Shown piece by piece: positions 30,456 through 46,268 of a stretch of 64,000 nucleotides of DNA. The notes beneath the pieces were generated by a model. It worked only from the letters and a program-made list of their open reading frames with translations. It had not been told where the DNA came from and searched no databases. How positions within the stretch are numbered: position 1 is the first letter of the stretch; each line of letters begins with the position of its first letter. The stretch comes from Bacteroidota bacterium (GTDB lineage: Bacteria; Bacteroidota; Bacteroidia; Flavobacteriales; Schleiferiaceae): positions 16,989 to 80,988 of the forward strand of contig PZPB01000002.1 of the NCBI GenBank assembly GCA_003045865.1, in the 5' to 3' direction. Position numbers and translations under genes: made by a program.

Positions 30456-31442
30456 TTATTTTTCTCCTTCCCCGAAAATATAGCTTTGAACGGCTTCTCC
30501 TTCTTGTTTGAAAGCCCGCAGCATTCCCGCGGTATTAAAGGATATTATGAAATTCCCTTCCTTGTCGATACCAATCACCCCGCCGTCACCGGCTCCGGGT
30601 TTTAAGACTTCATGTAGCACCGTGTCGGCGGCTTCCTGACTGCTTAAGCCTTGAAACTCGTAGCGTGCGCTAATTTGATAGGCTACCGCATGACGGATAA
30701 AATACTCGCCGTGGCCGGTACAGCTAATTCCCAGCGTAGCATTAGAGGCAAAGGTACCTGCACCAATGATAGGGGAATCGCCAATGCGACCATAACGCTT
30801 ATTCATCATGCCGCCGGTAGAGGTACCCGCCGCTATATTGCCTTTACGATCTCTTACCACGCAGCCCACCGTGCCCATTTTAAAATCGCGAATACTATCT
30901 AAGGCGCCTTGATGGCCCTTTATACTTTCGTGGATGCCTTTCATACGCTGGGTAACGAAATAGGAAGGATCTACTTGAGTAAGCCCATTTTGCAGACTGA
31001 AGGTATCTGCGCCAGCGCCACTGAGTAAAACATGAGGTGAGTTGTTTAGCACCGCTAAGGCGGCGGTAATAGGATTTTTGATGCAGCTTAGTCCAGCCAC
31101 GGCTCCGGCATTACCGGTTTTGCCATCCATAATAGAGGCGTCTAAAGAAGCTAGACCTTCATAAGTTAAAACTGCTCCTTTACCGGCATTGAAAAGACTG
31201 TCGTTTTCGAGCTGTTGGATAACTAGGCTTACTACTTCAATCGCCTTGGTGCCCTTTTGCAAGGCACTATCGCCTTTTGCAATGGCTTGGTGTAAAGACT
31301 GATGAAATGCTTCTATTTGTGCTTCGGAATAGTTTTCTGCTTTGAGGCCATTACCGGCCCCACCGTGAATGATAATTTGATAGTTTTTGTTTTGAGCCTG
31401 AAGGTTTAGGCCAAGTAGAAGAACAAAAAAAAGTCGCAACAT
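30456..31442 (-). CDS. Isoaspartyl peptidase/L-asparaginase (Ntn hydrolase), secreted
   Basis: IIIHGGAGNG, MGTVGCVVRDRKGNIAAGTSTGGMMNKRYGRIGDSPIIGAGTFA (autocleavage Thr in GTVG). Confidence 0.94.
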   Translation of the reverse strand: MLRLFFVLLLGLNLQAQNKNYQIIIHGGAGNGLKAENYSEAQIEAFHQSLHQAIAKGDSALQKGTKAIEVVSLVIQQLENDSLFNAGKGAVLTYEGLASLDASIMDGKTGNAGAVAGLSCIKNPITAALAVLNNSPHVLLSGAGADTFSLQNGLTQVDPSYFVTQRMKGIHESIKGHQGALDSIRDFKMGTVGCVVRDRKGNIAAGTSTGGMMNKRYGRIGDSPIIGAGTFASNATLGISCTGHGEYFIRHAVAYQISARYEFQGLSSQEAADTVLHEVLKPGAGDGGVIGIDKEGNFIISFNTAGMLRAFKQEGEAVQSYIFGEGEK

Positions 31443-31523: not shown

Positions 31524-31850
31524 TTACATAATGGCCAATTCTTCCTGCTCAATATTATCGGGCCATTGTTGATGGCAAAGTGATTTAAAGCGCTCATTCA
31601 TCTCTTTGGAGCAGCCGCTCAGCTCTACGTAAGACCGTTCTTCTTCGGGATAGGTATGTAGGGCTAAATGGCTTTCGCTAAGCAACCAAATGGCGGTATA
31701 ACCTTGCGGTTTAAACTGATGCTCGCTAAAGCCTACAATGCCATAACCCGCTTCGCTCAGAAATTTATGCAAATGCTTTTTCAGTAGACTGGCATCGGTT
31801 TCCAAAAGCCAAAAGCGTAAATTGTATATGCTAGTTTTTACCATTTTCAT
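31524..31850 (-). CDS. speD: S-adenosylmethionine decarboxylase proenzyme
   Basis: YTAIWLLSESHLALHTYPEEERSYVELSGCS (ESH self-processing site); directly abuts spermidine synthase stop codon. Confidence 0.93.
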   Translation of the reverse strand: MKMVKTSIYNLRFWLLETDASLLKKHLHKFLSEAGYGIVGFSEHQFKPQGYTAIWLLSESHLALHTYPEEERSYVELSGCSKEMNERFKSLCHQQWPDNIEQEELAIM

Positions 31851-33395
31851 TTAATATAAATCCCAATTGCCTTTCAGGTAATAACGGTACAAAACAGGGT
31901 TTTGAATTTGGTTTATCGCAATGCTATCGTTCGTGGCTTCGTAAATGTTCTTACCAAAATTACACATCATTAACATCGCATCTTGGTTTAACCAACGGGT
32001 GGGAATCGTAAACTCCATCTGCTGTAAAGCGGCTTTTAAATCTTTTTCTTCGGGCCAAGATTTTACTCCCATAACCCAGCCCCATTCGCCTAGGGTAATT
32101 ACTTGGTTATGCATTTTTTGGGTGGTGAATCCCGCCGCGGCCATGGTTTTATCGATACATAAAAAGGCTTTAGTGGCATAATAGGGACTGCCAGCTTGGG
32201 TTAGTAAAACCCCGTGTTTCTTTAGTTTTAAATGACAAAGCTGATAGAATTGTAAGGTATACAAACGGTTTAACTCCACTGAGCGTGGATCGGGTAAATC
32301 CACGATTATCGCATCGTAATAGTTCTCTCCCTTTTCCATAAAGTTGAAGGCATCGGTATTGATGATTTCTAGTTTAGGATGGTGAAAAGCGTCTTCGTTC
32401 AGTTCGCGTAAAATGGGATTGTATTTCCCCATATTAGTCATTACCGAGTCTAAATCTACTAAGGTGATTTTTTCAACATCGGGGTATTTTAAGATTTCTC
32501 GTACCGCACATCCGTCACCCCCACCCAGTACCAAAATATGCTTACGCTCTTGAATTATATTTAGCGCTGGATGGATTAATGGTTCGTGATATTTGTCTTC
32601 ATCAATGGTGCTAAGTTGTTGGTTGCCATTAATGTAAAGCCAATAACCGTTTTTCCACTGGGTAATTACAATGCGTTGGTATTTGCTCTGCTTCTCAAAA
32701 ACCACTTTGTCTTTATAACGGGCTTGTTCGCCTTGCAGAATAATAGGGCTTGCATAATAAGCGCCGGTACTAATCATTGCGAAGACGATAACGGCAGCCA
32801 AGCTTATCAGGCTTTTAGCCTTAATTTTTAAAGCGTCTTTAACCACTAAAAACAAGAGGATGGCTACCACAAAGTTTACCATTCCTAGTATAAAAGGGGT
32901 ATAGGTTAAACCTAAGATGGGTAAACCGACAAAGGCGAAAAACAATCCGCCCACGAGGGAGCCTAAATAATCCTTCTCCATAACGCTGGCTACATTGATG
33001 CGCAGCGATTCGAATTCTTCGTTGAGGCGGATTACCAAGGGGATTTCGAGGCCGATTAAAATACCAATGAGAATGCTCAGTCCGTAAATAATGAGGCCCA
33101 CGTATTCGGTGTACCCCGCCGCGGTATAGGCGAAGAGGCTGGCGAATGAAACCAGAATACTGAGGCTAAATTCAATGGCGATGAATTTAACTAAAAGGTT
33201 TTCGTTAAAGTATTTGCTAAACCTACTACCCAGTCCCATGGAGAAGAGCATTACCGAAACGATGAGCGACCATTGGGTAGCCGAATCGCCAATAAAATAG
33301 GTGGCAAGGGTAGAAAGGATGTATTCCGCCACAATGCCAGAAAGTCCCGTGGCAAATAGCGCAAGTTTTAAGACTGGTGAGCGTGAAAGTTTCAA
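31851..33395 (-). CDS. speE: Membrane-anchored spermidine synthase (polyamine aminopropyltransferase with N-terminal TM domain)
   Basis: About seven N-terminal TM segments; HILVLGGGDGCAVREILKYPDVEKITLVDLD, DAIIVDLPDPRSVELNRLYTLQFYQLC, LLTQAGSPY. Confidence 0.93.
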   Translation of the reverse strand: MKLSRSPVLKLALFATGLSGIVAEYILSTLATYFIGDSATQWSLIVSVMLFSMGLGSRFSKYFNENLLVKFIAIEFSLSILVSFASLFAYTAAGYTEYVGLIIYGLSILIGILIGLEIPLVIRLNEEFESLRINVASVMEKDYLGSLVGGLFFAFVGLPILGLTYTPFILGMVNFVVAILLFLVVKDALKIKAKSLISLAAVIVFAMISTGAYYASPIILQGEQARYKDKVVFEKQSKYQRIVITQWKNGYWLYINGNQQLSTIDEDKYHEPLIHPALNIIQERKHILVLGGGDGCAVREILKYPDVEKITLVDLDSVMTNMGKYNPILRELNEDAFHHPKLEIINTDAFNFMEKGENYYDAIIVDLPDPRSVELNRLYTLQFYQLCHLKLKKHGVLLTQAGSPYYATKAFLCIDKTMAAAGFTTQKMHNQVITLGEWGWVMGVKSWPEEKDLKAALQQMEFTIPTRWLNQDAMLMMCNFGKNIYEATNDSIAINQIQNPVLYRYYLKGNWDLY

Positions 33396-33396
33396 T

Positions 33397-34278
33397 TTAG
33401 ATACACCAAATTATAAGCATGGATCCACCAATATAGCCTAAGGCTTCTATCAGGGCTGCGCCCGAATTGGGGGTTTCTTGGTTCGCGATTTCATCACTTA
33501 AATTCTGACCTGGCAATAAGATTTTATCTACCAAAGTGCGAATAAGCGGTAAAATAATAATACCAATACCTGCTTCGTAGCCCACTTCCATTAGTGTATC
33601 CACCCAATTGTCGAAATTACCCATTAGGCCGTTTCTAATTAAATTGGCCATGGCGATAATTAGTCCCGCGTAGGCAATGCCCGCGGCCACATTATCTTTT
33701 TCAATTTCCTCGTGAATATCGTAAGGAACTAATTTGTTGTAAAGGGCGGTGCTAATTAAAATTAGAACTTGGCCCAAAACCCAGTATAGTAGGGCGGTGT
33801 AAATTCCGAAAAGCAAGTTGCCACTTTCACCGGTTATGGCGCCGAAAATGATTAATCCCGAACCTAGGTAATTAGCCCCTTCGATAATACCCATCCCGGC
33901 ATTGCGGTCCTCGGTAATTTCCTTCCAAATCGAAAATTTAGAAAGGGTAATTTTATCCATTATGGTAGAGGAGAGGTTTAAAAGAAGAATGGCAAGTAAG
34001 CCAAAAATCCCCATGTCCACCAAGTCAACTAGCAGTCCATTTGACTCGCCGTAAATTGCGCTACCTACCGCTAGTATCAGTCCTGCGAAATAACCCACAT
34101 AGGCAAAGCTGAAAGCGAGGTTGTCTTTTTCAACCAGTTCATTACTAAAGTTAATTTTATTCTTGCGCAGCTTAAATGCCCACTTTCCAATAAAGAGTAA
34201 AATTAGGGAGCTACTGAGGTAAATGAGAAAAAGCAAAAAGGAGTTAAGCCATTCGTTTGCTACAAGTTCGGTTGTCAT
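33397..34278 (-). CDS. DUF350 family membrane protein, internally duplicated
   Basis: Repeated motif LVEKDNLAFSFAYVGYFAGLILA / IEKDNVAAGIAYAGLIIAMANLI with four TM pairs. Confidence 0.85.
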   Translation of the reverse strand: MTTELVANEWLNSFLLFLIYLSSSLILLFIGKWAFKLRKNKINFSNELVEKDNLAFSFAYVGYFAGLILAVGSAIYGESNGLLVDLVDMGIFGLLAILLLNLSSTIMDKITLSKFSIWKEITEDRNAGMGIIEGANYLGSGLIIFGAITGESGNLLFGIYTALLYWVLGQVLILISTALYNKLVPYDIHEEIEKDNVAAGIAYAGLIIAMANLIRNGLMGNFDNWVDTLMEVGYEAGIGIIILPLIRTLVDKILLPGQNLSDEIANQETPNSGAALIEALGYIGGSMLIIWCI

Positions 34279-34297
34279 ATTGCTGTTTTTTGCTTAA

Positions 34298-35065
34298 TTA
34301 TTTTCCGCCACCAAAACCACGTCCGCGACTGCTAGAGCTACTACGATAACGCGAAGAAGAACGCGAGTTTCTACTGCTAGTTCTGCTGCTACTGCGTTGT
34401 ACTTTGCTACGCACATTTTGTTTAAAAGTGGTGGGTTTCCGGTTCCAGGTAGAGGTGCTACTGCGATTGGTATTGTGGCTGCCAGTAGTGCCGAAGCGAG
34501 TGCCCCCATTGGAGCTTGTTCCGTAATAGGTTCTGCCCGAAGGATAATAATTGCGACGATAATCGTTCCAGCCGCCTCGGTAAATAGGTGACATGCCATA
34601 ACCTAATACAGAACGTAGCATGGCGTATTTGCCATAGAATTCCCAGAAGCTATTGCCATCCGAACCTTGGTTCCATTTTCCGTACTTCTCGTTGCCAACA
34701 TAATTATTGTAACCGGGAGGTGCTACTTTCTTCTCCACTTCCCCATCTACCTTAGTGACAAGCGCCATGCCCATATTGTCGATATTGCTATTGAAATAGG
34801 CGTCGCTTACTTGCAGCCAATCGGTGGTTTCTGAAACTAAAGTATCTTGAAAACTATCCTCTTTAAGGATGCGGTACTGATGCAAGTACTTTTCACTACT
34901 CTCATCGTAGTTCATGTCGTAAAGCATAATGCTGTAGTTCGGTACTTCAGTCATTTTTTTTACTAAATCGTCGATGGGGTTTTTCTCGTAAACCGGGGTA
35001 TTAGGTCCGCAAGCACTAATTAAAAATAAGCTTGCTAAAAGACTGAAATAATGATAGATGCGCAT
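34298..35065 (-). CDS. Lipoprotein with Ser/Arg/Gly-rich C-terminal tail
   Basis: Lipobox ASLFLISAC; tail SSSRTSSRNSRSSSRYRSSSSSRGRGFGGGK. Confidence 0.7.
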   Translation of the reverse strand: MRIYHYFSLLASLFLISACGPNTPVYEKNPIDDLVKKMTEVPNYSIMLYDMNYDESSEKYLHQYRILKEDSFQDTLVSETTDWLQVSDAYFNSNIDNMGMALVTKVDGEVEKKVAPPGYNNYVGNEKYGKWNQGSDGNSFWEFYGKYAMLRSVLGYGMSPIYRGGWNDYRRNYYPSGRTYYGTSSNGGTRFGTTGSHNTNRSSTSTWNRKPTTFKQNVRSKVQRSSSRTSSRNSRSSSRYRSSSSSRGRGFGGGK

Positions 35066-35070
35066 GGTTC

Positions 35071-35619
35071 TTATTTTCTTGGAAGAATATCAGAAATTTC
35101 GAATTCGGAGATTACCTTCCCCCAAGATGCCTCGAAGGAACGTTCGCCCCATTGTTCAATGGTCAAATTTAAAGTTTCATCTTCGTTATAGTAGTCCCAA
35201 GCGATGAATTCTTGCCAATCGTCGTTTTTGCCTTTGGTCATATCGTTAAAATAGCCCGGCGATTCTTCATCAAGGAAATAGCTTTGACCCTCGTAAATTA
35301 TGGTTTCGGGTGGGGCGGAGCCCTCGCTTATATTCTTGGCGATTTCCGCTCCAAGCTTGCGCATTGGTACTTTTTGACACCACAGTAATTCTACTTCGTC
35401 GTCCTCATCTACCGCAAGGTAAAAACTGTCTTTACCATCGGAAACTTTATATTCTTTGCTAAACTCTTCATCGCCCCAGTCGTATTCGTATTCGCCGGTA
35501 ACTTCCCAAGTGCGTAAATCATATTCGAAAATATAGCCCATGCTTAGGTCTAAAACGTTGCGGCTGAAGGGTTTTGGTTCTTCTTCTTTTTTGCCAAAAA
35601 GATTTTTAAATAGGCTCAT
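35071..35619 (-). CDS. DUF4178-like protein
   Basis: 182 aa; MSLFKNLFGKKEEEPKPFSRNVLDLSMGYIFEYDLRTWEVTGEYEYDWGDEEFSKEYKV; operon context. Confidence 0.7.
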   Translation of the reverse strand: MSLFKNLFGKKEEEPKPFSRNVLDLSMGYIFEYDLRTWEVTGEYEYDWGDEEFSKEYKVSDGKDSFYLAVDEDDEVELLWCQKVPMRKLGAEIAKNISEGSAPPETIIYEGQSYFLDEESPGYFNDMTKGKNDDWQEFIAWDYYNEDETLNLTIEQWGERSFEASWGKVISEFEISDILPRK

Positions 35620-38600
35620 TGTTCTTGTTTTTCATTTGTTGATAGTGACTGAATATTTGCACCAACTCGTCTAAGCCAGTGCCCATTCGTGCCATTTGAT
35701 CTATAATCGGCGCAATCTGATTTCCGCCGAAACTCTTCATTCTTTGTTGTCGGCTAAAGACGGCCAGAATTTCTTTTTTTCTTTTTTTCTCGTCTTCGCT
35801 CATTAAATCTAAGAGTTCCTTCAGTTTTAGGAAATTGAATTCCGCTGCCGAACTTAAACTTTGTGATTCGTTTTCATAATGCGAAAGAATCAAGGTTTCT
35901 AATTCTTCCTCGTTCATTATCGGGCTCAGTTTCTCTACCATTTTATTCATATCGCGGTAGGAACCTTGTAGTTTAAAAGGAGGCTCGGTTCTATATTCTT
36001 CCGCTTGGCCAGCAGAAAGGATATACTGCTTATTTACTTTCAAGATAACCGCTCTCAGTCTTAGCATTTTCTGCAAAAGCTGAAGGTATTCTTTTATTTC
36101 TTCGCTACTGTGTTTTCCCTCTAAACTTATCTGACTAGTATCGCCACTTTCAATTGCTTGGACTAGTATTTTAAAGTCTTTGCTGTTTTGATCTTTCAGT
36201 TTAGCAATGCTGGGATTACTGCTGAGGCTGTTTTCTAAATAGCTATTTTCAAAGGCTTCGGCTTTCCCGCCAATAATATCTCCAAGATTGTAAATGTCGG
36301 CTCGGTTGGATAGCATATCGGGAATTTGAAACTTATCGCCACTTTCGGTATAGGGGTTTCCTGCCATCACCACCGCCACTTTTCGGCCACGGAAATCGTA
36401 GGTTTTGCTTACACCTTTGTAGATGCCTTCTATTTTACGTTGTGCGTCGCAGAGCGAAATGAACTTTTGCAAAAAGGCGGGATTACAATGCTGAATATCA
36501 TCGATATAGATCATAACATTGTCGCCCATCTCAAATGCAAGATTCAGTTTTTCCAGTTCTTCGCGTGCAGCTGAATTCGGTGCTACCGAAGGGTCAATGG
36601 CGGTAACTTCGTGACCAATGGCAGGGCCGTTTATTTTCATGAAAACCAATCCTAAACGGTTGGCGATATACTCCATTAAGGTAGTCTTACCATATCCTGG
36701 AGGGGAAATAAGTAAAAGCATTCCCATTAGGTCGGTACGTTTATTGGCACCAGCGGCGCCCATTTGCTTGGCAAGGTTATCGCCGACTAAAGGCAGGTAA
36801 ACTTCATCTAATAATTGGTTTCGAACAAAGGAACTCATCACCTTGGGTTTGAATTCTTGTAAGCGTAATTCCTTTTTTTGATCTGCTAGTAAATCCTTTT
36901 TCAACTTTTGAAAGCGCAGAAAATCCTGCACCGTGGTGCTCTCAAATCCATGCAGCTTCTCCATGAAATGCGGATAGTGAAGCGTAGTTTGTCCTTTTTC
37001 AAGAGAGGGGTGATCACCTTCCAGTCCTTCTATCTTTTCGGAGAGAATCACTTTTTGATGCTCATCTAGCGCAAGCGTTTTATCCATTAAAAGGATGCTG
37101 GCCTCGCGCATTACTTCTTCCGAAAAGGGCTTGCTTGTTCCTTGGTTTTGGTAGGCTTTAAGCCAAGATAGGATCGTTTGAAAGCTTTTTCCTTTCTTGT
37201 CTTTTTCGTTTTTCAAAGACAGTTCATAGTCTTTGGTCCATCGGTTCTTTTTCAGGTGTAATTCAAACTGCTCACTTAAATCCCAAGCGGAGAGGGAAAA
37301 GGCTAGCTTTTGCTCCGAACTTAAAAGATAGAATAGGTAATGAGCGGCGTCTTCCCGTACTTTATCATCTACCCAATCTAGCTTTAGCGGAAGGCTTTGA
37401 ATATCATTTTTTAGCTCGGCAATACTGTTTACGAAGCTTTTACTTTGGGGGAATATTTTTAGAATGCTGCGAATAATGCGCATGTTTTCGTCCCACTTTT
37501 CGCGCACTTCACTCGATATTTCGCGCTTCCAAAATAAATAGGCCAGGCAGCGGGCATTGCTGCTATAGCGTAAAAGTCCGATGCTAAAATGAAGTTTCAG
37601 CAGCGCCTTTAAAATGAGCATAGCGTCTTTATCGTGTACGCCTTTTACATAACCTTCATCGTATTTACGGCCCATTTTAAGTTGGACATATTCCTGTAAA
37701 TCGCTGTCATTAAGAAGATGCAATTCTTCCAACGTTTTGGTCTCTTCATCTTTGCCATTTTGGGCTTCCAGAAAAAGGTGATAAGCTAAATACTCGGCGC
37801 GATACACTTGAGCGTTTTCACTTTTTAGGCTTTGGTCCCACACGCTGCGGGTTGCTTCAATGGCCTCCGATTGCAGCGCCTCAAAAAAGTTGGTGCCACT
37901 AATATGGTAGTAAAGATTTTCGTCTTTGTAAACGATGCTGAGGTCGATGCTTTGGGTGTTTACATTAAACTGATGCTTGCCCAGTTGAATGATATTTTCG
38001 CCGTTTACAAAAAGTTCTTGCTTGTCTTTGCTTTGTCGTAGGGCATCTTCATAGCTTGTTTTTAACTGACTAAGAAGGTCATCAGCTTTCACCGAATCGC
38101 CCAAGGACAAAAGTTGTTCGGCGATGCCGCGTACTTTTTCGATCATTAAATCGCTGGCGAAAAAGGTGCGCATTTCGCCCTCGTTCTTAAGCTTGGCTAG
38201 TCTTTTTTGGATGCCGTTAATTATACGACCGCCCGATTTTTGAAGACTAAGCGTTTGTTTGTTTAAGGCTTCATTAAGCTGTACTTTTTTCGAGTCGAAG
38301 GCACCATAAAGCTCTTCCCTTTTTTCGGCAATGATTTCTATAAACTCATCAAAGGCAGCGAATTTCGCTTCTAGTTCCTCTAGTTGTACCATCAACTTAT
38401 TGAGGTATTCATCGCATTTTTCGGCCGAATCAGCCAAGTTGAGGTAATTGGTTAAGCCTTGGTTAATGAGTTTTATTTGTGACTTAAACTCTGCTTCGCC
38501 TTCGAGGCTGAGTAATTCTTTTTTACGGTTTTTAAGCTGGGCGCTGATGCGGTTAAACTGCGCGTAGAGCGTAGAAATGGCATCAATGATTTTAACTGAT

Positions 38601-40537
38601 TGGGTGGCGTCGTCGATTTTTAAGTTGCCCACGATTTCAATCAAGAGGTCGAGCTCAGCTGAAATCTGGATAATGTCTTCCGCTAAGCGATTAAGCTCCG
38701 TTACCTTTTTTGCTTGGTCGAGCTCTTGCTTAAGTTTTTCCGTTTTTAGTTCATAAGGTTCTAGCGCTTCCTTACGGAGAAGGTAATTCAGAGTGGCTTT
38801 CGATAATTGATCGTTAACCTCACTTAACTCATTTTCTAAAGCTTCAATGACAGCAAGGTCGCTGTACCGCAGATCTTTTAAAGCAATTACTTTCCCCTTA
38901 TTCTCTCTCAGTAGGGCGAGGCGATTAACGTATTCGTCAATATTTTTAGCCTGACTATTTTTTATTTTAGAAATGGCTTTATGGGCCTCTGCCATTACGC
39001 TGGCACTTTCGGCTGCCGTGTGCGCTTTTATTTTCAGAACCTTTTCATATTCATCAATGGCTGCCGTGGCTGTGCTTTTTATAGCTTCAATGGGTTGAGA
39101 GATCTGTTCTACTTCGGCATGGTCAATCCAGTGGTAGGCATCGATAATGCCAGTGCTTTGCTTGCTTAAATCTGTGTATAAGTTAGCGTAGCGATCATCC
39201 TTGCCAATGAGTTTAATAAGCTCACTGCATTCGCTCATCAGGCGCACAATTTCTTTATTGCCAATTTTATAAATGTAAGAATCGCTTTCTGCTTCCACCA
39301 CGTGGTTAGGCGAGTAAAAGGGGGTTTGCCAAATTTGGATGAGATGTACTCTTTTTTGCTCCTCTTCGGCCTTAAAGAAAATAAGCTCACCGCTTTCAAA
39401 TAGGGTATAGCCATTGCAAATTATCGGGGTAGCAACTTTCTGATCTATAATGTTATAATTCAGTAAAATATAAACACCACTCTCGCCTTGGTAAAAGATA
39501 TAAAGGTAATCCTCGCCGTTTTGAGAGGCTATTTTCCGCTCAAAAAGCATATTGTTGAGCTGAATATCGAAGAGCTTTACTTCCCCCGTTTGGATATAAT
39601 AACCCTTGGCGAAAATAATTCCCTGATTATCGGGTAGTAGAACACAAGAATCTTCCAAGGCGTCCATGCGAGCACAGGCTTGAATTTTCTCATTGTAAAC
39701 TATGTAGCGAAAATCCTTTTCTTTATAAGGTTTTACCTTAAGAGCGATAAGGTTGCCAATAATGGCAAAGTAAATTTCCGCGTCATCTAGCGTTTGGTCT
39801 TTGTCTTCAACGGGTTCGCTGTAGATGCCTTTACCTGTATCGGTATTGTCTTCAATTTTTAGAGTAAGATCGCCGCCGGTAGTTTCAATAAATACGCGAT
39901 CCTTAATAGAGATGTGAGGGTGTAAACCTTTGCGATGCATGTCGCGACTAATCTTTTCCCACGTGAATTCGTGCTGCCTAGGGTATTTAAATTCATGGTC
40001 GCTACGGTTACCCGCATATTGATATTTACCATCGATAAGCGACCATTTGAAAGTCTTTATATCATTCGCGCTTTTCCCCACTCGAAACACCATAAAGATG
40101 GCATTGCCGCTGCGGGCAAATTTGCTGAAAACCGTTTCGCGGTAATATTGGTATAGATTGGCAAAATCTAGTAAAAACTGCTCATTATCTAGCAGTGTTG
40201 ATTCGCAGGGCTTAAAGTTTTGGCTTTCCTCTTGAAAGTGATAGGTGCTAAAAACATCATTTACATGGGTTTCGCTTTTCAGGCCCATGTGCACATTGTA
40301 GCCGAACCAAAAATAATTGTCGCCTATTGGAATGATATCGCGGGCTAGGCAGTTGTTTTCCGTGCTAATCCTTTCCGTCGCTTTTAGCTTGGTTTCGGTG
40401 GCTCCGAAAACGTTTTTGCGCGCCGCGTTTAAGCGCTGCAAGCGTTCTTGTAAATCGGCAGAATGATTGCGCAAACGGTCACGAATTACCTCGTAACTAC
40501 CTATTTCAATATTTACTTCTTGATTTTCTTGAGCCAT
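35606..40537 (-). CDS. Giant coiled-coil AAA+ 'DNA repair ATPase' family protein (DUF3686-type)
   Basis: 1643 aa; Walker A SPPGYGKTTLMEYIANRLG, Walker B NVMIYIDDIQHCNP, long central coiled coil. Confidence 0.85.
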   Translation of the reverse strand: MAQENQEVNIEIGSYEVIRDRLRNHSADLQERLQRLNAARKNVFGATETKLKATERISTENNCLARDIIPIGDNYFWFGYNVHMGLKSETHVNDVFSTYHFQEESQNFKPCESTLLDNEQFLLDFANLYQYYRETVFSKFARSGNAIFMVFRVGKSANDIKTFKWSLIDGKYQYAGNRSDHEFKYPRQHEFTWEKISRDMHRKGLHPHISIKDRVFIETTGGDLTLKIEDNTDTGKGIYSEPVEDKDQTLDDAEIYFAIIGNLIALKVKPYKEKDFRYIVYNEKIQACARMDALEDSCVLLPDNQGIIFAKGYYIQTGEVKLFDIQLNNMLFERKIASQNGEDYLYIFYQGESGVYILLNYNIIDQKVATPIICNGYTLFESGELIFFKAEEEQKRVHLIQIWQTPFYSPNHVVEAESDSYIYKIGNKEIVRLMSECSELIKLIGKDDRYANLYTDLSKQSTGIIDAYHWIDHAEVEQISQPIEAIKSTATAAIDEYEKVLKIKAHTAAESASVMAEAHKAISKIKNSQAKNIDEYVNRLALLRENKGKVIALKDLRYSDLAVIEALENELSEVNDQLSKATLNYLLRKEALEPYELKTEKLKQELDQAKKVTELNRLAEDIIQISAELDLLIEIVGNLKIDDATQSVKIIDAISTLYAQFNRISAQLKNRKKELLSLEGEAEFKSQIKLINQGLTNYLNLADSAEKCDEYLNKLMVQLEELEAKFAAFDEFIEIIAEKREELYGAFDSKKVQLNEALNKQTLSLQKSGGRIINGIQKRLAKLKNEGEMRTFFASDLMIEKVRGIAEQLLSLGDSVKADDLLSQLKTSYEDALRQSKDKQELFVNGENIIQLGKHQFNVNTQSIDLSIVYKDENLYYHISGTNFFEALQSEAIEATRSVWDQSLKSENAQVYRAEYLAYHLFLEAQNGKDEETKTLEELHLLNDSDLQEYVQLKMGRKYDEGYVKGVHDKDAMLILKALLKLHFSIGLLRYSSNARCLAYLFWKREISSEVREKWDENMRIIRSILKIFPQSKSFVNSIAELKNDIQSLPLKLDWVDDKVREDAAHYLFYLLSSEQKLAFSLSAWDLSEQFELHLKKNRWTKDYELSLKNEKDKKGKSFQTILSWLKAYQNQGTSKPFSEEVMREASILLMDKTLALDEHQKVILSEKIEGLEGDHPSLEKGQTTLHYPHFMEKLHGFESTTVQDFLRFQKLKKDLLADQKKELRLQEFKPKVMSSFVRNQLLDEVYLPLVGDNLAKQMGAAGANKRTDLMGMLLLISPPGYGKTTLMEYIANRLGLVFMKINGPAIGHEVTAIDPSVAPNSAAREELEKLNLAFEMGDNVMIYIDDIQHCNPAFLQKFISLCDAQRKIEGIYKGVSKTYDFRGRKVAVVMAGNPYTESGDKFQIPDMLSNRADIYNLGDIIGGKAEAFENSYLENSLSSNPSIAKLKDQNSKDFKILVQAIESGDTSQISLEGKHSSEEIKEYLQLLQKMLRLRAVILKVNKQYILSAGQAEEYRTEPPFKLQGSYRDMNKMVEKLSPIMNEEELETLILSHYENESQSLSSAAEFNFLKLKELLDLMSEDEKKRKKEILAVFSRQQRMKSFGGNQIAPIIDQMARMGTGLDELVQIFSHYQQMKNKNNEPI

Positions 40538-40573
40538 ACAAAATTAGCTTGAAGCGGTTGATTTTATTTAGAA

Positions 40574-40597
40574 AGAGCGCGCGGTAAAGCGCGCTCT
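40574..40597 (-). other. Intra-operonic GC-rich hairpin
   Basis: agagcgcgc-ggtaaa-gcgcgctct between flotillin stop and AAA+ start codon. Confidence 0.7.
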
Positions 40598-40611
40598 ACT
40601 TGGCTTTTGTT

Positions 40612-42792
40612 TTAGTCTTCGATGATGCCAAAATCGTCGGCGCTGCTATTGCTCAAATTGTTTTGTTTGGCAAAATTTAGCATTTGTTCTAATACGCTGC
40701 GTTTCTTACTGTCGTCCGTACTATTGATTAGTCGGGTAAGGAAGGAAGCTACACTAAGGTTTCTAAGGTCCTCGGTACTAATACCCGATTCTTTTACAAT
40801 ACCGCGTACTTTTTCTAGTAGGCTTGCGCCAGATGGGTCATTAAGAAGCTGATCTTTCACCTGAGTAAATACTACCGAATTATCAATGCGACGGTCCATG
40901 GCTTTTCCAGAAGTAATGGCGCCTACGATCTTATCAAAGAAGACATTTTCACCCCCTACGATATCAATTTTAGCACTGCGTAATGCTTCCGATAAAACTT
41001 GAGCTTGGGCATCGGCAATATCTTTTTGGATATGGATACCCGCTAATTCTACCGATTTGTCTTTATCGAGACGTAGTTTAAACTCTTCGTGGTCTTTACC
41101 AGCATCATTTAAGGTTTTCATAGCTTTGGCCTTGCGGTCAATTCCTTCCGCTTCCGCAGATGCTTTTTCCAGATTCACTAGCGCTTCGGCCAGACCTTTT
41201 TCTTTTTCCGCTTCCGCTTTCTTGCGAATTACTTCCGCTTCGGCGAGACCGGTCGCTTGATTAACTTCCGCGGCCGATTTACCAATTCTCAAATCGGCTT
41301 CCGCTTGGGCTAAACTCTTCGCTTCAATACCACGAGCCTCGGCAATCGCTTGATCTTCAATAACAGAAGCTTCTGCTTCCCCTTGTTTCTCGCGGGCTTG
41401 GGCTTTGGCTTCTAATACACGGGCTTCGGCTAATCCTGCTGCTGCAAAACGAGAGGCTTCGGCTTCCGCTAAAACTTTAATGGCTTCTGCTTTTTGAACT
41501 GAGCTTTGTTGTTCGGCATCGGCATCAATGATTTTCTGCTTGGCACTAAATTCAGCGGCTGATTTAGCGGCTTCTGCCTTTTTGATTTCTTGCACCAATG
41601 AAGATTCTGCTTCTTCTTCGGCCTTAGTAATAGAGACTCTTTTTAGTCTTTCCGCTTCTGCGAAAGCACGGGTGTCTTTGATGCGCTCTTCTTCATCCAC
41701 CACAGTTTTCTCAATGGCAACACGCTCGCGTATAACTTCTTGAATATTTTTCTGTTCGGTTTCAATCGCTTTTTGCTTTTCTATCTGCGTAAGCGTAACA
41801 ATACGTTCGCGTTCGGTCGCTTCTAACTGGCGGTCTTTTTCAACTCTTTCCGTTTCTACTACTTCGGTGCGTTCTTTGTTTTTCGCGGCCACAATTACTT
41901 GACGCTCTTTATTTTGTTCACTTACCTCAATTTCTTCTTCTGTTGCAATTCTTGCTCTTTCCGATTTGAGTTTTTCCTCTTGATTTACTTTTTCAATTTC
42001 CGCTTCTTCGCGCGCTTTCACATTGGCTATTTCGCGTTTCTGTTTTTCTTCGCTCTCGGCTAACTGCCTTTCTAAAACCAAGATAGCTTCGCGCGCTTCA
42101 ACGTCTTGTTGCTTAATTATCTTTTCCTTATCACGCTGAATAAAGTTGGCTTTAACCGCTTCTCTCGCAGTGATTTCGGTGATCTTTTTAATCCCTTCTG
42201 CATCTAAAATATTATTGGGATCTAAAGATTCTAGAGGTGTTTGCTCTAAGAAGTCGATGGCGGCATCGTCGAGGATATAGCCATTGAGGTCGGTGCCAAT
42301 TATGTCTATGATTTCTCTTCTGAATTCATCGCGTTGGTTGTATAAATCAACAAAGTCGAATTTTTTACCCACGGTTTTTAGGGCTTCCGAAAACTTGGCG
42401 TCAAAGAGTAAGCGCAAGGCATCTTTAGAAGAGGCGCGGCTGCAACCTACCGATTGAGCAACGCGTTTTACATCGTCTACCATTTCGTTTACACGCACAT
42501 AAAAAGCCACATTGATGTCGGCGCGCAAATTGTCTTTACACACTAGGCCATCTTTGCCCTTGCGGTCAATGGTAATGGTGTTTAAGGAGATGTCCATAAT
42601 CTCCACTTTGTGAAGAACGGGAATGACCATCATGCCATTGAAAGACACTTTTATACCACCCACACCAGTGCGGACGAGGGCTTGGCCTTGGGAGGTTTTG
42701 TAATAGAAGCGGGAGAACATGGCGATAATCCCGAAAATTAGAACTACCGCTACAATGATCGCCACCATGCCGGTTTGCTGAAAAATTTCCAT
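40612..42792 (-). CDS. Flotillin-family (SPFH/band 7) protein
   Basis: 726 aa; N-terminal TM, QALVRTGVGGIKVSFNGMMVIPVLHKVEIMDISLNTI, then long Ala/Glu-rich coiled coil. Confidence 0.92.
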   Translation of the reverse strand: MEIFQQTGMVAIIVAVVLIFGIIAMFSRFYYKTSQGQALVRTGVGGIKVSFNGMMVIPVLHKVEIMDISLNTITIDRKGKDGLVCKDNLRADINVAFYVRVNEMVDDVKRVAQSVGCSRASSKDALRLLFDAKFSEALKTVGKKFDFVDLYNQRDEFRREIIDIIGTDLNGYILDDAAIDFLEQTPLESLDPNNILDAEGIKKITEITAREAVKANFIQRDKEKIIKQQDVEAREAILVLERQLAESEEKQKREIANVKAREEAEIEKVNQEEKLKSERARIATEEEIEVSEQNKERQVIVAAKNKERTEVVETERVEKDRQLEATERERIVTLTQIEKQKAIETEQKNIQEVIRERVAIEKTVVDEEERIKDTRAFAEAERLKRVSITKAEEEAESSLVQEIKKAEAAKSAAEFSAKQKIIDADAEQQSSVQKAEAIKVLAEAEASRFAAAGLAEARVLEAKAQAREKQGEAEASVIEDQAIAEARGIEAKSLAQAEADLRIGKSAAEVNQATGLAEAEVIRKKAEAEKEKGLAEALVNLEKASAEAEGIDRKAKAMKTLNDAGKDHEEFKLRLDKDKSVELAGIHIQKDIADAQAQVLSEALRSAKIDIVGGENVFFDKIVGAITSGKAMDRRIDNSVVFTQVKDQLLNDPSGASLLEKVRGIVKESGISTEDLRNLSVASFLTRLINSTDDSKKRSVLEQMLNFAKQNNLSNSSADDFGIIED

Positions 42793-42818
42793 AAAGAGAA
42801 TTAAAGAATGATTGGTTT

Positions 42819-43463
42819 TTAGCTAATGCTTAGGTGAGGTTCTACCAGATAAACTCCTGGTTCGTCGAGCTTTTCAATAAAAAGCACTTGTTCACCTTTA
42901 AGTACAGACTGGCTTTTCGGACTGCGGATGTAGAGTCTCAAAAAACTGCCTTGATAGTTGATTTCGGCCATGCCTTTATTGAGGTCGGAAGCAGGGCTGA
43001 TAACTGTGCCTATTTTGCCAATAATTTCCTTCTTTTTACTGTCGTCATTTAATTTTTCGAAAAAGCGGACGAAGGGTGTGGTTAGCACTTTAGAGATTAA
43101 TAGGCTCAGAAAGAGCAGAGGTATAAAACTTAGTAGTCCGAAAACAAAGCTTTCGAGGCCTAAAAAGTTATTGATGTTTATGCTTAGTAGCCATAGCGGA
43201 AGGCTCACGAAGCTCAACCAAATCATAAAAGGGATGCGGCCGAGGTTAAAGAAAACGAGCACATTATTTAACCAAGACACATCGCCGGAGACGTCTCCCT
43301 CAATCTCAAAATCTGCTTCACCATCAATGTCGATATCGAAATCTAAAAACTCGGTATCTAATAAGCCGATAATTACAATTATCCAGTAGAGAAGGATGAA
43401 GAGGAGCAATGCCGTTGGTATAGCATTGGCTCCGTTGAAAATGAGATTAAGGAATTCGTTCAT
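42819..43463 (-). CDS. Membrane protein with C-terminal OB-fold (NfeD/YqiJ-like)
   Basis: N-terminal TMs, C-terminal IIGKIGTVISPASDLNKGMAEINYQGSFLRLYIRSPKSQSVLKGEQVLFIEKL; adjacent to flotillin. Confidence 0.8.
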   Translation of the reverse strand: MNEFLNLIFNGANAIPTALLLFILLYWIIVIIGLLDTEFLDFDIDIDGEADFEIEGDVSGDVSWLNNVLVFFNLGRIPFMIWLSFVSLPLWLLSININNFLGLESFVFGLLSFIPLLFLSLLISKVLTTPFVRFFEKLNDDSKKKEIIGKIGTVISPASDLNKGMAEINYQGSFLRLYIRSPKSQSVLKGEQVLFIEKLDEPGVYLVEPHLSIS

Positions 43464-43473
43464 GATTTATTTT

Positions 43474-44202
43474 TTATTCACTTTTACTATCGTCGGCTTT
43501 GTTCATGCCTAAGCGTGCTTTTAGAGCGGCTAGTTCATCGCTAACTTGACTAGACTTGGCACCGTCAAGGGCTTTGTCGATTTCTTCATCAACCGAGCGG
43601 CTTTCGTTGGCAATATCACCGTAGCTTTCGGCTAGAGCTTCTTCTTGCTCAACTTTTTCTTTCATGCGCTCTAGCATGCTAACGGTACCTGAGCCATCGA
43701 TTTTAGACATTTGTTTATTAATGTTTACGGTAGCGGAGCTCACTTTAACTCTGGCTTTCAAAGTTTTCAGCTCGTTTTCGTACTGGCTAATTTGCTGACG
43801 GAGTTTTTTAATATTCGACTCCATGGTGCTTATGTTGCCGTCGAACTTATTCTTGTCGGCTAAGGATCGTTGAGCTTGCTCTTTGTTTTCGTTTTTCTTA
43901 GTTAAAGCTTCGTTGGCAAGACGTTCTGCCTCTGCCATTTCCATTTCACCTTTTTCGGCGCGTTCCAGCAGCATAATTGCTTTCTTTTCGTAGTCTTTAG
44001 CCTTGCTTTCAAAATTGCTTTGATCATTACGAGCCCGAATGCTAAGCGCTTTGATTTCCGCCAAAGCGTGCAGTGCTTTGTCTAAATCCATTTTTAAGTC
44101 ACGGATACCCTGCTCCGTCATTTTGATAGGGTCCTCTAATTTGTCTAGAGCAGAATTGGTTTCGGCTTTACCGATGCTAAAAAGTCTTCTTAAAATATTC
44201 AT
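43474..44202 (-). CDS. PspA/IM30 family protein
   Basis: Start at MNILRRLFSIGKAETNSALDKLEDPIKMTEQGIRDLKMDLDKALHALAEIKAL. Confidence 0.92.
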   Translation of the reverse strand: MNILRRLFSIGKAETNSALDKLEDPIKMTEQGIRDLKMDLDKALHALAEIKALSIRARNDQSNFESKAKDYEKKAIMLLERAEKGEMEMAEAERLANEALTKKNENKEQAQRSLADKNKFDGNISTMESNIKKLRQQISQYENELKTLKARVKVSSATVNINKQMSKIDGSGTVSMLERMKEKVEQEEALAESYGDIANESRSVDEEIDKALDGAKSSQVSDELAALKARLGMNKADDSKSE

Positions 44203-44215
44203 TGTTGTGTTTTTT

Positions 44216-44611
44216 TTAATGTTTTGAAAATTTGATGAGTTCGTCCGAGTATTCACTTAAGAGCATTCCTAAGCTATTAATGGATCCTTCTAATTCGTTT
44301 GCGTCAAGGTTTTCTATTTGTAAGGTGTCGCGGAAAATAACGCGGTTTCCAGTTTCGTCTAGGGCAAAAGCACCGTGCACGATGTCGCGGTTCTTTATTA
44401 AGAGATTTTTAAGGATCTCTTTGTCGTCGCTTTTTAGTTCGAAGAGAAATTGCTCCATAATTAGAATCGGGTCAGCACAAGCTAAAACCAAATTGCTAAT
44501 ACCAGAAGTCTCGTCTTCAATTACTAAAATTTCTTCCTCTTCATTTTGATAAACGATACTGAGGTCTAGGTCTAGAACAAATGATTTTACCTTGTCGAAA
44601 TAGCTTGTCAT
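44216..44611 (-). CDS. YjfI/DUF2170-like protein
   Basis: 131 aa; GETGNRVIFRDTLQIENLDANELEGSINSLG-type C-terminus, upstream of PspA as in yjfI-yjfJ. Confidence 0.65.
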   Translation of the reverse strand: MTSYFDKVKSFVLDLDLSIVYQNEEEEILVIEDETSGISNLVLACADPILIMEQFLFELKSDDKEILKNLLIKNRDIVHGAFALDETGNRVIFRDTLQIENLDANELEGSINSLGMLLSEYSDELIKFSKH

Positions 44612-44801: not shown

Positions 44802-45566
44802 ATGTCAAGCATAGGAAAAAACATAAAGAAGATAAGAGGTGTTAAAAGTCTGAATCAGAGTGATTTTGCTGATTTATTTAATCTGAAACGTGCCAGTATT
44901 GGTGCTTATGAAGAAGGAAGAGCAGAGCCTAAATTATCTACTATAATAGAAATAGCTAATCATTTTGGCATTTCGGTGGACGATTTGCTAAAGAAGGACT
45001 TATCTGTGAATGATCTTTACCACTTTGATATCTTCCGTAAGGATTTGATAAAAGGCGCAAAACATAATTTAAGGCCTAGTAAATTACCACCTAGCCTTAT
45101 TATTATCCCATTAATTACTCAACTTTTAAAGTTAGAGTATCTAGCAGATCGCGAGTCTTTGACACAAATGGGGCAACTAAGTTTACCTCTCTCGAAAGGT
45201 ATAAACTACCGTGCCTTTGAATTAGCCGACAACAGTATGCTAGAGCAGGGTATGGGTTTCGGCGCTGGCGATATTGTAATTGCGTACAAAGGCCCGTCTT
45301 TTAACTTAAGTAAGGCAGAGCAAGGGAAGATTTATCTTTTTGAAACTATTGAAGATTGGAAATTACGTCGTTTAACGAGCGTTAAGAAAGAGCTATTAAC
45401 CATAAGTGCTACGTCACTAGATTATTACCAAGAGGAAATCCAGCCTACTGCGATAGTAGATTTGTGGCAGGTAGAGCAAGTGATAACTAAAAATATTAGC
45501 AGCGCAGGTGCTTTTCAGGAGCAAATCGATCTACTGAAAAGTGAAATCTCGAAGCTTTCGAAATAA
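44802..45566 (+). CDS. XRE-family regulator with S24/LexA-like C-terminal domain
   Basis: HTH: GKNIKKIRGVKSLNQSDFADLFNLKRASIGAYEEGRAEPKLSTIIEIANHFGISVDDLL; C-term YRAFELADNSMLEQGMGFGAGDIVIAYKG. Confidence 0.85.
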   Translation: MSSIGKNIKKIRGVKSLNQSDFADLFNLKRASIGAYEEGRAEPKLSTIIEIANHFGISVDDLLKKDLSVNDLYHFDIFRKDLIKGAKHNLRPSKLPPSLIIIPLITQLLKLEYLADRESLTQMGQLSLPLSKGINYRAFELADNSMLEQGMGFGAGDIVIAYKGPSFNLSKAEQGKIYLFETIEDWKLRRLTSVKKELLTISATSLDYYQEEIQPTAIVDLWQVEQVITKNISSAGAFQEQIDLLKSEISKLSK

Positions 45567-45575
45567 AAATGACTT

Positions 45576-46268
45576 ATGAAAAATGAAATTGCCAAGCTTC
45601 TTGAGGAGATGGAACGCTCAATAGAGGATCAATATTTATCGCGACAAGAAAGAAAGGATTTAAAGGCATTACTAAAAGAATTAAACTTTGACGATGCCAA
45701 CAATTCGTGGTTGCTGAGTAAATTTAGAGATCTAGCTTTAGAAGCGAGCGCTGATACAGAATCGCAGCATCTTTTAAGTTGGTTTTACGAAGGGGCTAAA
45801 TTAGTTTTAGGCTCAAAAGGGGAGAGTAGTGAAACTAAGGGACGGGCTTATTTCAGTCCAGGCGATGCCTGTCGAGATGCAATATTATATCAGCTTGCTA
45901 ATGCTAAGACGTCGGTTGATATTTGCGTTTTCACCATTAGCGATGATATAATTAGTGAAGCCATTTTAGCGGCGCATCAACGGGGATTGCGAGTGCGGAT
46001 TATTACCGATAATGATAAGGCCTTTGATATGGGGTCGGATGTAGATTATCTCCATGAAAAGGGAATCCCACTACGAACCGATCACACGAAAGTGCATATG
46101 CATCACAAATTCGCCTTATTCGATAGTGCCATATTAATAACGGGAAGTTATAATTGGACCCGTTCTGCGGCAAGCAGTAACTACGAAAACATTGTGGTAT
46201 TAGAAGATGCGGGTTTAATTCGCAGTTTTAAAAATGAATTTGGTCGTTTGTGGACTAGCCTCGCTTAG
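45576..46268 (+). CDS. Single-HKD phospholipase D-like protein
   Basis: KTSVDICVFTISDDIISEAILAAHQRGLRVRIITDNDKAFDMGSD...HTKVHMHHKFALFDSAILITGSYNWTRSA (HxKx4D). Confidence 0.88.
   Translation: MKNEIAKLLEEMERSIEDQYLSRQERKDLKALLKELNFDDANNSWLLSKFRDLALEASADTESQHLLSWFYEGAKLVLGSKGESSETKGRAYFSPGDACRDAILYQLANAKTSVDICVFTISDDIISEAILAAHQRGLRVRIITDNDKAFDMGSDVDYLHEKGIPLRTDHTKVHMHHKFALFDSAILITGSYNWTRSAASSNYENIVVLEDAGLIRSFKNEFGRLWTSLA

Follow-up and report, generated by a model that had tools for sequence, protein, structure and literature searches.

A C-terminal lysine as the candidate acceptor for a membrane-fused SpeE in a merged PspA-type operon of Schleiferiaceae

Why would an S-adenosylmethionine (AdoMet) decarboxylase and a SpeE-like aminopropyltransferase be encoded within an operon of PspA-type membrane stress proteins? 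The question is raised by a 64,000-nt stretch of DNA from a Schleiferiaceae genome (assembly GCA_003045865.1, contig PZPB01000002.1, positions 16,989 to 80,988; hereafter the window, in whose numbering all positions of its genes are given). Here a run of ten minus-strand genes joins pspA to speD and to a gene for an aminopropyltransferase domain fused to seven predicted transmembrane (TM) helices, which we call TM-SpeE. Membrane-fused SpeE-like enzymes of this type (NF002956) bear the name polyamine aminopropyltransferase, yet their bacterial members are reported not to make spermidine. The original prediction for this locus was that spermidine, or an aminopropylated product, is made at the membrane; with regard to the latter, comparison of sequences points to the C-terminal Lys of a protein as the acceptor. 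We propose, with confidence a little short of even, that SpeD and TM-SpeE aminopropylate the invariant C-terminal Lys of a lipoprotein encoded by the operon itself, within what would be a merged PspA-type envelope operon.

The lipoprotein (34298-35065, minus strand) has a signal peptide with lipobox Cys19 and a beta-rich domain, and its tail, disordered and rich in Arg, Ser and Gly, ends in RGFGGGK, the proposed acceptor being Lys255. Its AlphaFold2 (AF2) model has a pLDDT of 75, with values below 50 in the tail, and a search of the PDB gave no significant match to its fold. In an alignment of 21 sequences (A4), R247, G254 and K255 are invariant and the terminal Lys is present in 21/21, including a Bacillota counterpart of 23% identity, whose ending is GAGK. 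All 30 homologues found with a profile, some of them near-duplicates, also end in Lys; they come from Bacteroidota, Desulfobacterota, Gemmatimonadota and Latescibacterota. As background, 12% of the long open reading frames (ORFs) in the DNA that encodes them have a C-terminal Lys. Furthermore, among 299 evenly sampled Bacteroidota genomes the lipoprotein was found in exactly the six with a type-1 TM-SpeE and in 0 of the 293 others.

Lys endings extend beyond this family. At seven distant plasmid TM-SpeE loci that lack the operon lipoprotein, we found other anchored proteins, mostly small, that end in Lys: those of Ensifer (ESGK), Tritonibacter (NRVK), Novosphingobium (PSHK), Ralstonia (GGHK), Burkholderia (GSHK) and Gemmatirosa (RHGK), together with a 510-aa lipoprotein of Alteromonas (SSGK). 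A held-out set of 15 type-2 Bacteroidota loci, for which the Lys-tail prediction was written down before inspection, yielded a Lys-tailed partner in 13, that is, in every one of the 13 without a ligase gene. Most of these partners are 57-76 aa long, lie just upstream of DUF350-speE and end in [FY]YHK, YHHK, YQHK or SFGK; at one locus (L173) the terminal Lys is on the tail of a DUF4178 protein, and at another (L168) the Lys-tailed gene is found at a greater distance upstream, still inside the cluster. Counted conservatively, 14/39 of the small anchored ORFs upstream of TM-speE end in Lys, against 11/137 of those in other parts of these loci (p=6e-5). Two further arrangements are worth recording. 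On a Cytophagales contig, a stretch of about 8 kb (L057:7273-15420) holds three TM-speE genes; two of them adjoin different Lys-tailed proteins (ending GGGFGK and IHAGK), which gives the impression of a separate partner for each enzyme. The Alteromonas plasmid (L124:5944-13181) has a TM-SpeE operon that includes SpeD, a toxic-anion-resistance gene, DUF4178, the 510-aa Lys-tailed lipoprotein and DUF350.

The two exceptions in the held-out set, L176 and L177, have a divergent cluster encoding SpeD, an ATP-grasp protein of the glutathionylspermidine (GSP) synthase type (PF03738, E=3.9e-81 in L176) and an anchored protein ending in STRSYGG. These clusters (L176:4032-6125 and L177:4120-6242) stand beside TM-SpeE and are a possible hybrid of two tail-modifying chemistries. 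In E. coli, YjfC and YgiC are named peptide--spermidine ligase in RefSeq. DUF1190 lipoproteins encoded next to ligases of this type share the Gly-Gly ending: YjfM and YgiB of E. coli end in GG, as do those of V. vulnificus, Sulfitobacter, Rhodobacter, Proteus and Photobacterium, that of V. campbellii ending in GS; plasmid-borne DUF1190 genes were used in this comparison, a ligase gene next to the copy in Photobacterium was not confirmed and the gene adjoining the one in Proteus was not profile-tested. A ligase requires a C-terminal carboxylate and an aminopropyltransferase requires an amine. Which residue ends the partner depends on the type of enzyme. The simplest account is that TM-SpeE acts on the terminal Lys.

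A C-terminal Lys has another precedent, in Braun's lipoprotein (Lpp), where its epsilon-amine is used for L,D-transpeptidase linkage. A lipoprotein with a flexible tail would suit the same role, with the Lys serving as an attachment point for peptidoglycan that has nothing to do with TM-SpeE chemistry. We consider this quite improbable, given that the lipoprotein co-occurs exactly with TM-SpeE and is absent elsewhere, that Lys also ends anchored proteins of 48-85 aa beside TM-speE and is replaced by Gly-Gly where a ligase is present, and that no transpeptidase was recognised among the conserved neighbours.

Both enzymes of the operon look active, since their catalytic residues and the spermidine synthase (SpdSyn) fold are retained. 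SpeD (31524-31850; PF02675, E=9.3e-15) is short and keeps the equivalents of the pyruvoyl Ser63, His68 and Cys83, along with the two prolines conserved in this region. It scores 55.3 bits with the Pfam AdoMet_dc model, above the threshold of 25, and 53.7 bits with the TIGR03330 equivalog, below the cut-off of 75.65; judged by its sequence, it is a divergent subfamily of class 1b. A role for SpeD as a pyruvoyl ornithine or arginine decarboxylase was considered and is not favoured, as the conserved prolines are kept, TM-SpeE is adjacent and an arginine decarboxylase-like (ADC-like) gene of the pyridoxal phosphate type is present. TM-SpeE (31851-33395; PF01564 Spermine_synth, E=5.6e-39) matches NF002956 over residues 6-511 with 562 bits, above the curated cut-off of 472, and stays below that of the spermidine synthase model TIGR00417 (138 bits, cut-off 250). 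It retains GGGDG, the catalytic aspartate pair of the D-x-x-DP motif and Q400, with DLPDP invariant in type-1 members. Its C-terminal domain aligns with solved aminopropyltransferases (APTs), and its AF2 model (pLDDT 87.7) was matched by Foldseek to SpdSyn/APT structures with TM-scores of at most 0.8 by target length.

Intact active sites would equally suit an ordinary membrane-tethered synthase of spermidine or another free polyamine, as the original prediction and the name 'polyamine aminopropyltransferase' given to NCBIfam NF002956 suggest, the more so as both genes are single-copy and are the sole speD and speE in the assembly (3.05 Mb, about 90% complete, the window being its contig 35). 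We think this distinctly unlikely. The assembly also contains a deoxyhypusine synthase-like (DHS-like) gene and the ADC-like gene, the latter cut by a contig end, and DHS homologues (SpeY) produce homospermidine (PMC10407285; PMC9992855). Among 36 genomes of the family, SpeD and full-length TM-SpeE occurred together in nine, some 250 nt from each other, and both were absent from 27; the DHS-like gene was present in 34. Genomes of the order that lack the DHS-like gene carry a canonical SpeD scoring 123-148 bits, versus 51-58 bits in the window's family. Moreover, bacterial membrane-APT fusions have been reported as uninvolved in spermidine or spermine synthesis (PMC12803844). Because homospermidine-type genes are present, SpeD and TM-SpeE are accessory and always paired in the family, and homologues are reported as uninvolved, the polyamine-type enzymes of the operon probably do not make free spermidine, and the suggestion that spermidine is made at the membrane finds no support.

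What, then, might the membrane domain do? It holds four near-invariant acidic residues (E24, E75, E117 and D142), which within the seven-TM domain suggest a membrane-embedded substrate or a transport path, and the substrate of the published family is not putrescine. Both points would fit an enzyme that aminopropylates a lipid headgroup or another small molecule of the membrane, with the lipoprotein acting as a sensor or partner rather than as acceptor. Such a role appears unlikely to us, as it leaves unexplained both the Lys endings on seemingly unrelated partners and the switch to Gly-Gly where a peptide ligase is present.

The Lys and Arg content per protein of TM-SpeE alternates along the chain, with 2.0 at the N-terminus, 0.1 in loop L1, 3.3 in L2, 0.1 in L3, 3.0 in L4, 0.5 in L5 and 3.6 in L6, and the same trend was seen in 22 further TM-SpeE sequences. 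This predicts seven helices, an N-terminus inside and a catalytic domain that lies outside the inner membrane, so that the enzyme would share its side of the membrane with the tail of the lipoprotein. An extracytoplasmic placement is suggested by this charge pattern together with the flavin adenine dinucleotide (FAD) amine oxidases with twin-arginine-type signals that are encoded beside TM-speE in many distant operons, many of them of type 2. Such oxidase genes adjoin TM-speE in L163-L165, L167, L170-L175, L123 and L127 (PF01593 in the two tested); most of the proteins have twin-arginine-type N-termini and a lipobox-like Cys, and it is possible that they oxidise the modified amine outside the cytoplasm.

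Combining these observations, we can offer a rough proposal for the operon. SpeD would decarboxylate AdoMet and so supply the donor, and TM-SpeE, held in the membrane by its seven helices, would pass the aminopropyl group to an amine, for which the terminal Lys on the flexible basic tail of the lipoprotein is the likeliest acceptor. The tail of the lipoprotein would thereby become more polycationic while staying tethered to the membrane, and it could attach to anionic surfaces of the membrane, or sense them, and couple to PspA. DUF4178, lipoprotein, DUF350, TM-SpeE and SpeD would then form a tail-modification module, and CesT, PspA, YqiJ, flotillin and the AAA+ protein a module for membrane remodelling or scaffolding.

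Several points weigh against this proposal. With the catalytic domain outside, decarboxylated AdoMet must cross the membrane, which leaves donor supply unexplained, and we know of no route for this compound outside the inner membrane. A C-terminal Lys fits a peptidoglycan tether of the Lpp type as well. At four TM-SpeE loci (L035, L040, L041 and L042) the DNA examined holds no convincing Lys-tailed partner, and their partners may be unlinked; some small partners elsewhere were found by seeking ORFs that end in Lys, which leaves the held-out set as the one nearly blind test. The ligase loci L176 and L177 also carry TM-SpeE, so a terminal Lys is not obligatory. Finally, in an hhalign comparison of the Lys-tailed lipoprotein with DUF1190 only the signal peptides align.

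A broader version of the idea, possible but doubtful in our estimation, would have TM-SpeE add aminopropyl units to the C-terminal Lys of its anchored partner on the outer face of the inner membrane, with the membrane domain or DUF350 supplying decarboxylated AdoMet across the membrane, and the Lys tail with its aminopropyltransferase and the Gly-Gly tail with its ligase being interchangeable means of placing a polyamine at a protein C-terminus in PspA-linked systems. What is new here is that an invariant C-terminal Lys, through comparison and a held-out test, gives this enzyme family a specific acceptor hypothesis. If true, bacteria would have a protein modification that parallels peptide-spermidine ligation, and polyamine chemistry would be tied directly to membrane stress systems of the PspA type.

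The operon in which this would take place is compact. Its ten ORFs, from 44611 down to 31524, all lie on the minus strand and are separated by no more than 74 nt (in 5' to 3' order 13, 10, 26, 74, -14, 5, 19, 1 and 0 nt), which bears out the original description; the ORFs for the AAA+ and DUF4178 proteins do overlap by 14 nt, and the ATG of speD does follow the TAA of speE immediately. These gaps are counted from an ATG at 44202 for pspA, a better-fitting start by sequence than the GTG from which the ORF was listed, up to 44256. The first gene (44216-44611) encodes a small CesT/Tir-like (YbjN-like) protein, which is not a DUF2170 protein and matches PF22550 CesT_Tir_1 over its full length (E=2.3e-54). 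It is followed by PspA/IM30, an ESCRT-III-like membrane remodeller (43474-44202; PF04012, E=1.9e-38), a YqiJ/YuaF-like membrane protein (42819-43463; PF21001, sub-threshold at E=0.006), whose gene adjoins the flotillin-type gene in all module-1 loci, and a flotillin-type protein with an N-terminal TM segment and a long coiled coil (40612-42792; conserved family A1). The latter found no match in Pfam or PDB searches, either as a single sequence or as a profile, while members of family A1 are 56-80% identical among relatives; the flotillin and YqiJ names rest on TM and coiled-coil architecture, gene order and the work of Ravi et al. (PMC11237479), with no significant profile match. Next come a 1643-aa protein with DUF3686, DUF7902 and a C-terminal AAA+ ATPase domain (35606-40537; PF12458, E=1.3e-184, PF25472 and PF00004), the DUF4178 protein (35071-35619; PF13785, E=1.5e-25), the lipoprotein, a tandem DUF350 membrane protein (33397-34278; PF03994 in two stretches, E=1.1e-51), TM-SpeE and SpeD. 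A beta-aspartyl-peptidase/asparaginase gene on the same strand (30456-31442; PF01112, E=1.9e-99) is a possible eleventh member: it abuts speD (~0-1 nt) in several relatives of the same genus, lies 81 nt away in the window and is unlinked or separate elsewhere.

Upstream, on the plus strand, a divergent XRE-type helix-turn-helix (HTH) gene (44802-45566; PF01381, E=7e-10) probably encodes the regulator of the operon; an HTH gene opposite CesT is kept in most module-1 loci and also in loci without that module, and in most relatives whether or not the SpeE module is there. The PLD-like gene that follows it (45576-46268) is far less conserved; some proteobacterial operons of the PspA/CesT group 1 contain a PLD gene (Ravi et al. 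2024, PMC11237479). The content of the locus might suggest an anti-phage defence operon, as the AAA+ protein is large, PspA is present and the divergent HTH gene has a PLD-like gene after it; the original prediction had also raised such a role. We regard this as extremely improbable and found no support for it: PADLOC returned only weak, fold-level matches, limited to methyltransferase-fold, AAA or coiled-coil regions and falling short of the component set of a system, and the locus is syntenic and ordinary in the genus.

Synteny in relatives of the same genus supports a single co-directional unit of SpeD, SpeE, PspA, the flotillin-type protein, DUF350 and the AAA+ protein, and the linkage is not confined to this genome; a SpeE 97% identical to that of the window was found in a Schleiferiaceae metagenome-assembled genome. 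Related operons that have the YqiJ-flotillin-AAA+ cassette and others that lack it are found at one and the same place in the chromosome. For example, one genome (G005) has at this site, beside a folylpolyglutamate synthase-type gene, the HTH gene facing CesT-PspA-DUF4178-lipoprotein-DUF350-SpeE-SpeD-asparaginase, without the cassette. CesT-PspA-YqiJ-flotillin-AAA+ stands alone in other members of the family or order (L018, L024, L026-L029). The second module is split in Latescibacterota and Gemmatimonadota, where lipoprotein-DUF350-SpeE faces DUF4178-PspA-CesT, and in Bacillota it reads DUF4178-PspA-lipoprotein-DUF350-SpeE. Because relatives carry each module separately, the window can be seen to merge the two, with a dedicated SpeD added.

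Parts of this arrangement have known counterparts. Li et al. (2019, Biochem J 476:2579) reportedly described clusters of AdoMet decarboxylase, an MFS-SpdSyn fusion and DUF350 that are uninvolved in spermidine or spermine synthesis. These reportedly resemble the window in having SpeD beside a membrane-fused SpdSyn-like protein and DUF350. They differ from our proposal in that no acceptor is named in the citing texts (PMC11237479; PMC12803844). The E. coli yjfIJKLMC and ygiBC genes likewise combine a CesT-like protein, PspA, DUF350, a tailed lipoprotein and a polyamine-transferring enzyme, the latter described as peptide--spermidine ligases YjfC and YgiC (Pederick et al. 2023, Biochemistry 62:899, as cited in PMC10948618). 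There, however, the enzyme is an ATP-grasp ligase, the lipoprotein is a DUF1190 protein ending in GG, and DUF2491 takes the place of DUF4178, two domains that an hhalign comparison did not show to be homologous. The window has no such ligase gene and its lipoprotein ends in GGGK; in agreement with the earlier remark that no GSP-synthase ATP-grasp gene is visible here, PF03738 was absent from the whole ~90% complete assembly. The bac operon of P. aeruginosa, with biofilm and rhamnolipid phenotypes, also joins a DUF2170 CesT-like protein (BacA) to a PspA-like one (BacB), but according to its authors there is no spermidine synthase-like gene in or near it (PMC10948618).

The closest match is with two separate, overlapping PspA/CesT-Tir groups described by Ravi et al. 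(2024, PMC11237479), whose main text does not contain the word 'lysine', so that the invariant C-terminal Lys is not described there. Group 1 (for example ANH61663.1) consists of CesT/Tir, PspA, flotillin/band-7, YqiJ and an AAA+ protein with N-terminal domains, all of which are found in the window operon, flotillin and YqiJ by architecture and order. Group 2 (for example AAN56746.1) consists of CesT/Tir-PspA, DUF4178, the Ctha_1186 lipoprotein, DUF350 and a TM-spermidine-synthase-like fusion; these too are all found, the window lipoprotein probably being of the Ctha_1186 family, an assignment made from operon position. In comparison with group 1, the YqiJ-flotillin-AAA+ trio of the window is placed between pspA and the DUF4178 gene, within a group-2 operon, and in comparison with group 2 there are, in addition, a divergent SpeD dedicated to the operon and the flotillin/AAA+ cassette. 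The window operon is a merger of published PspA/CesT operon classes rather than a new kind.

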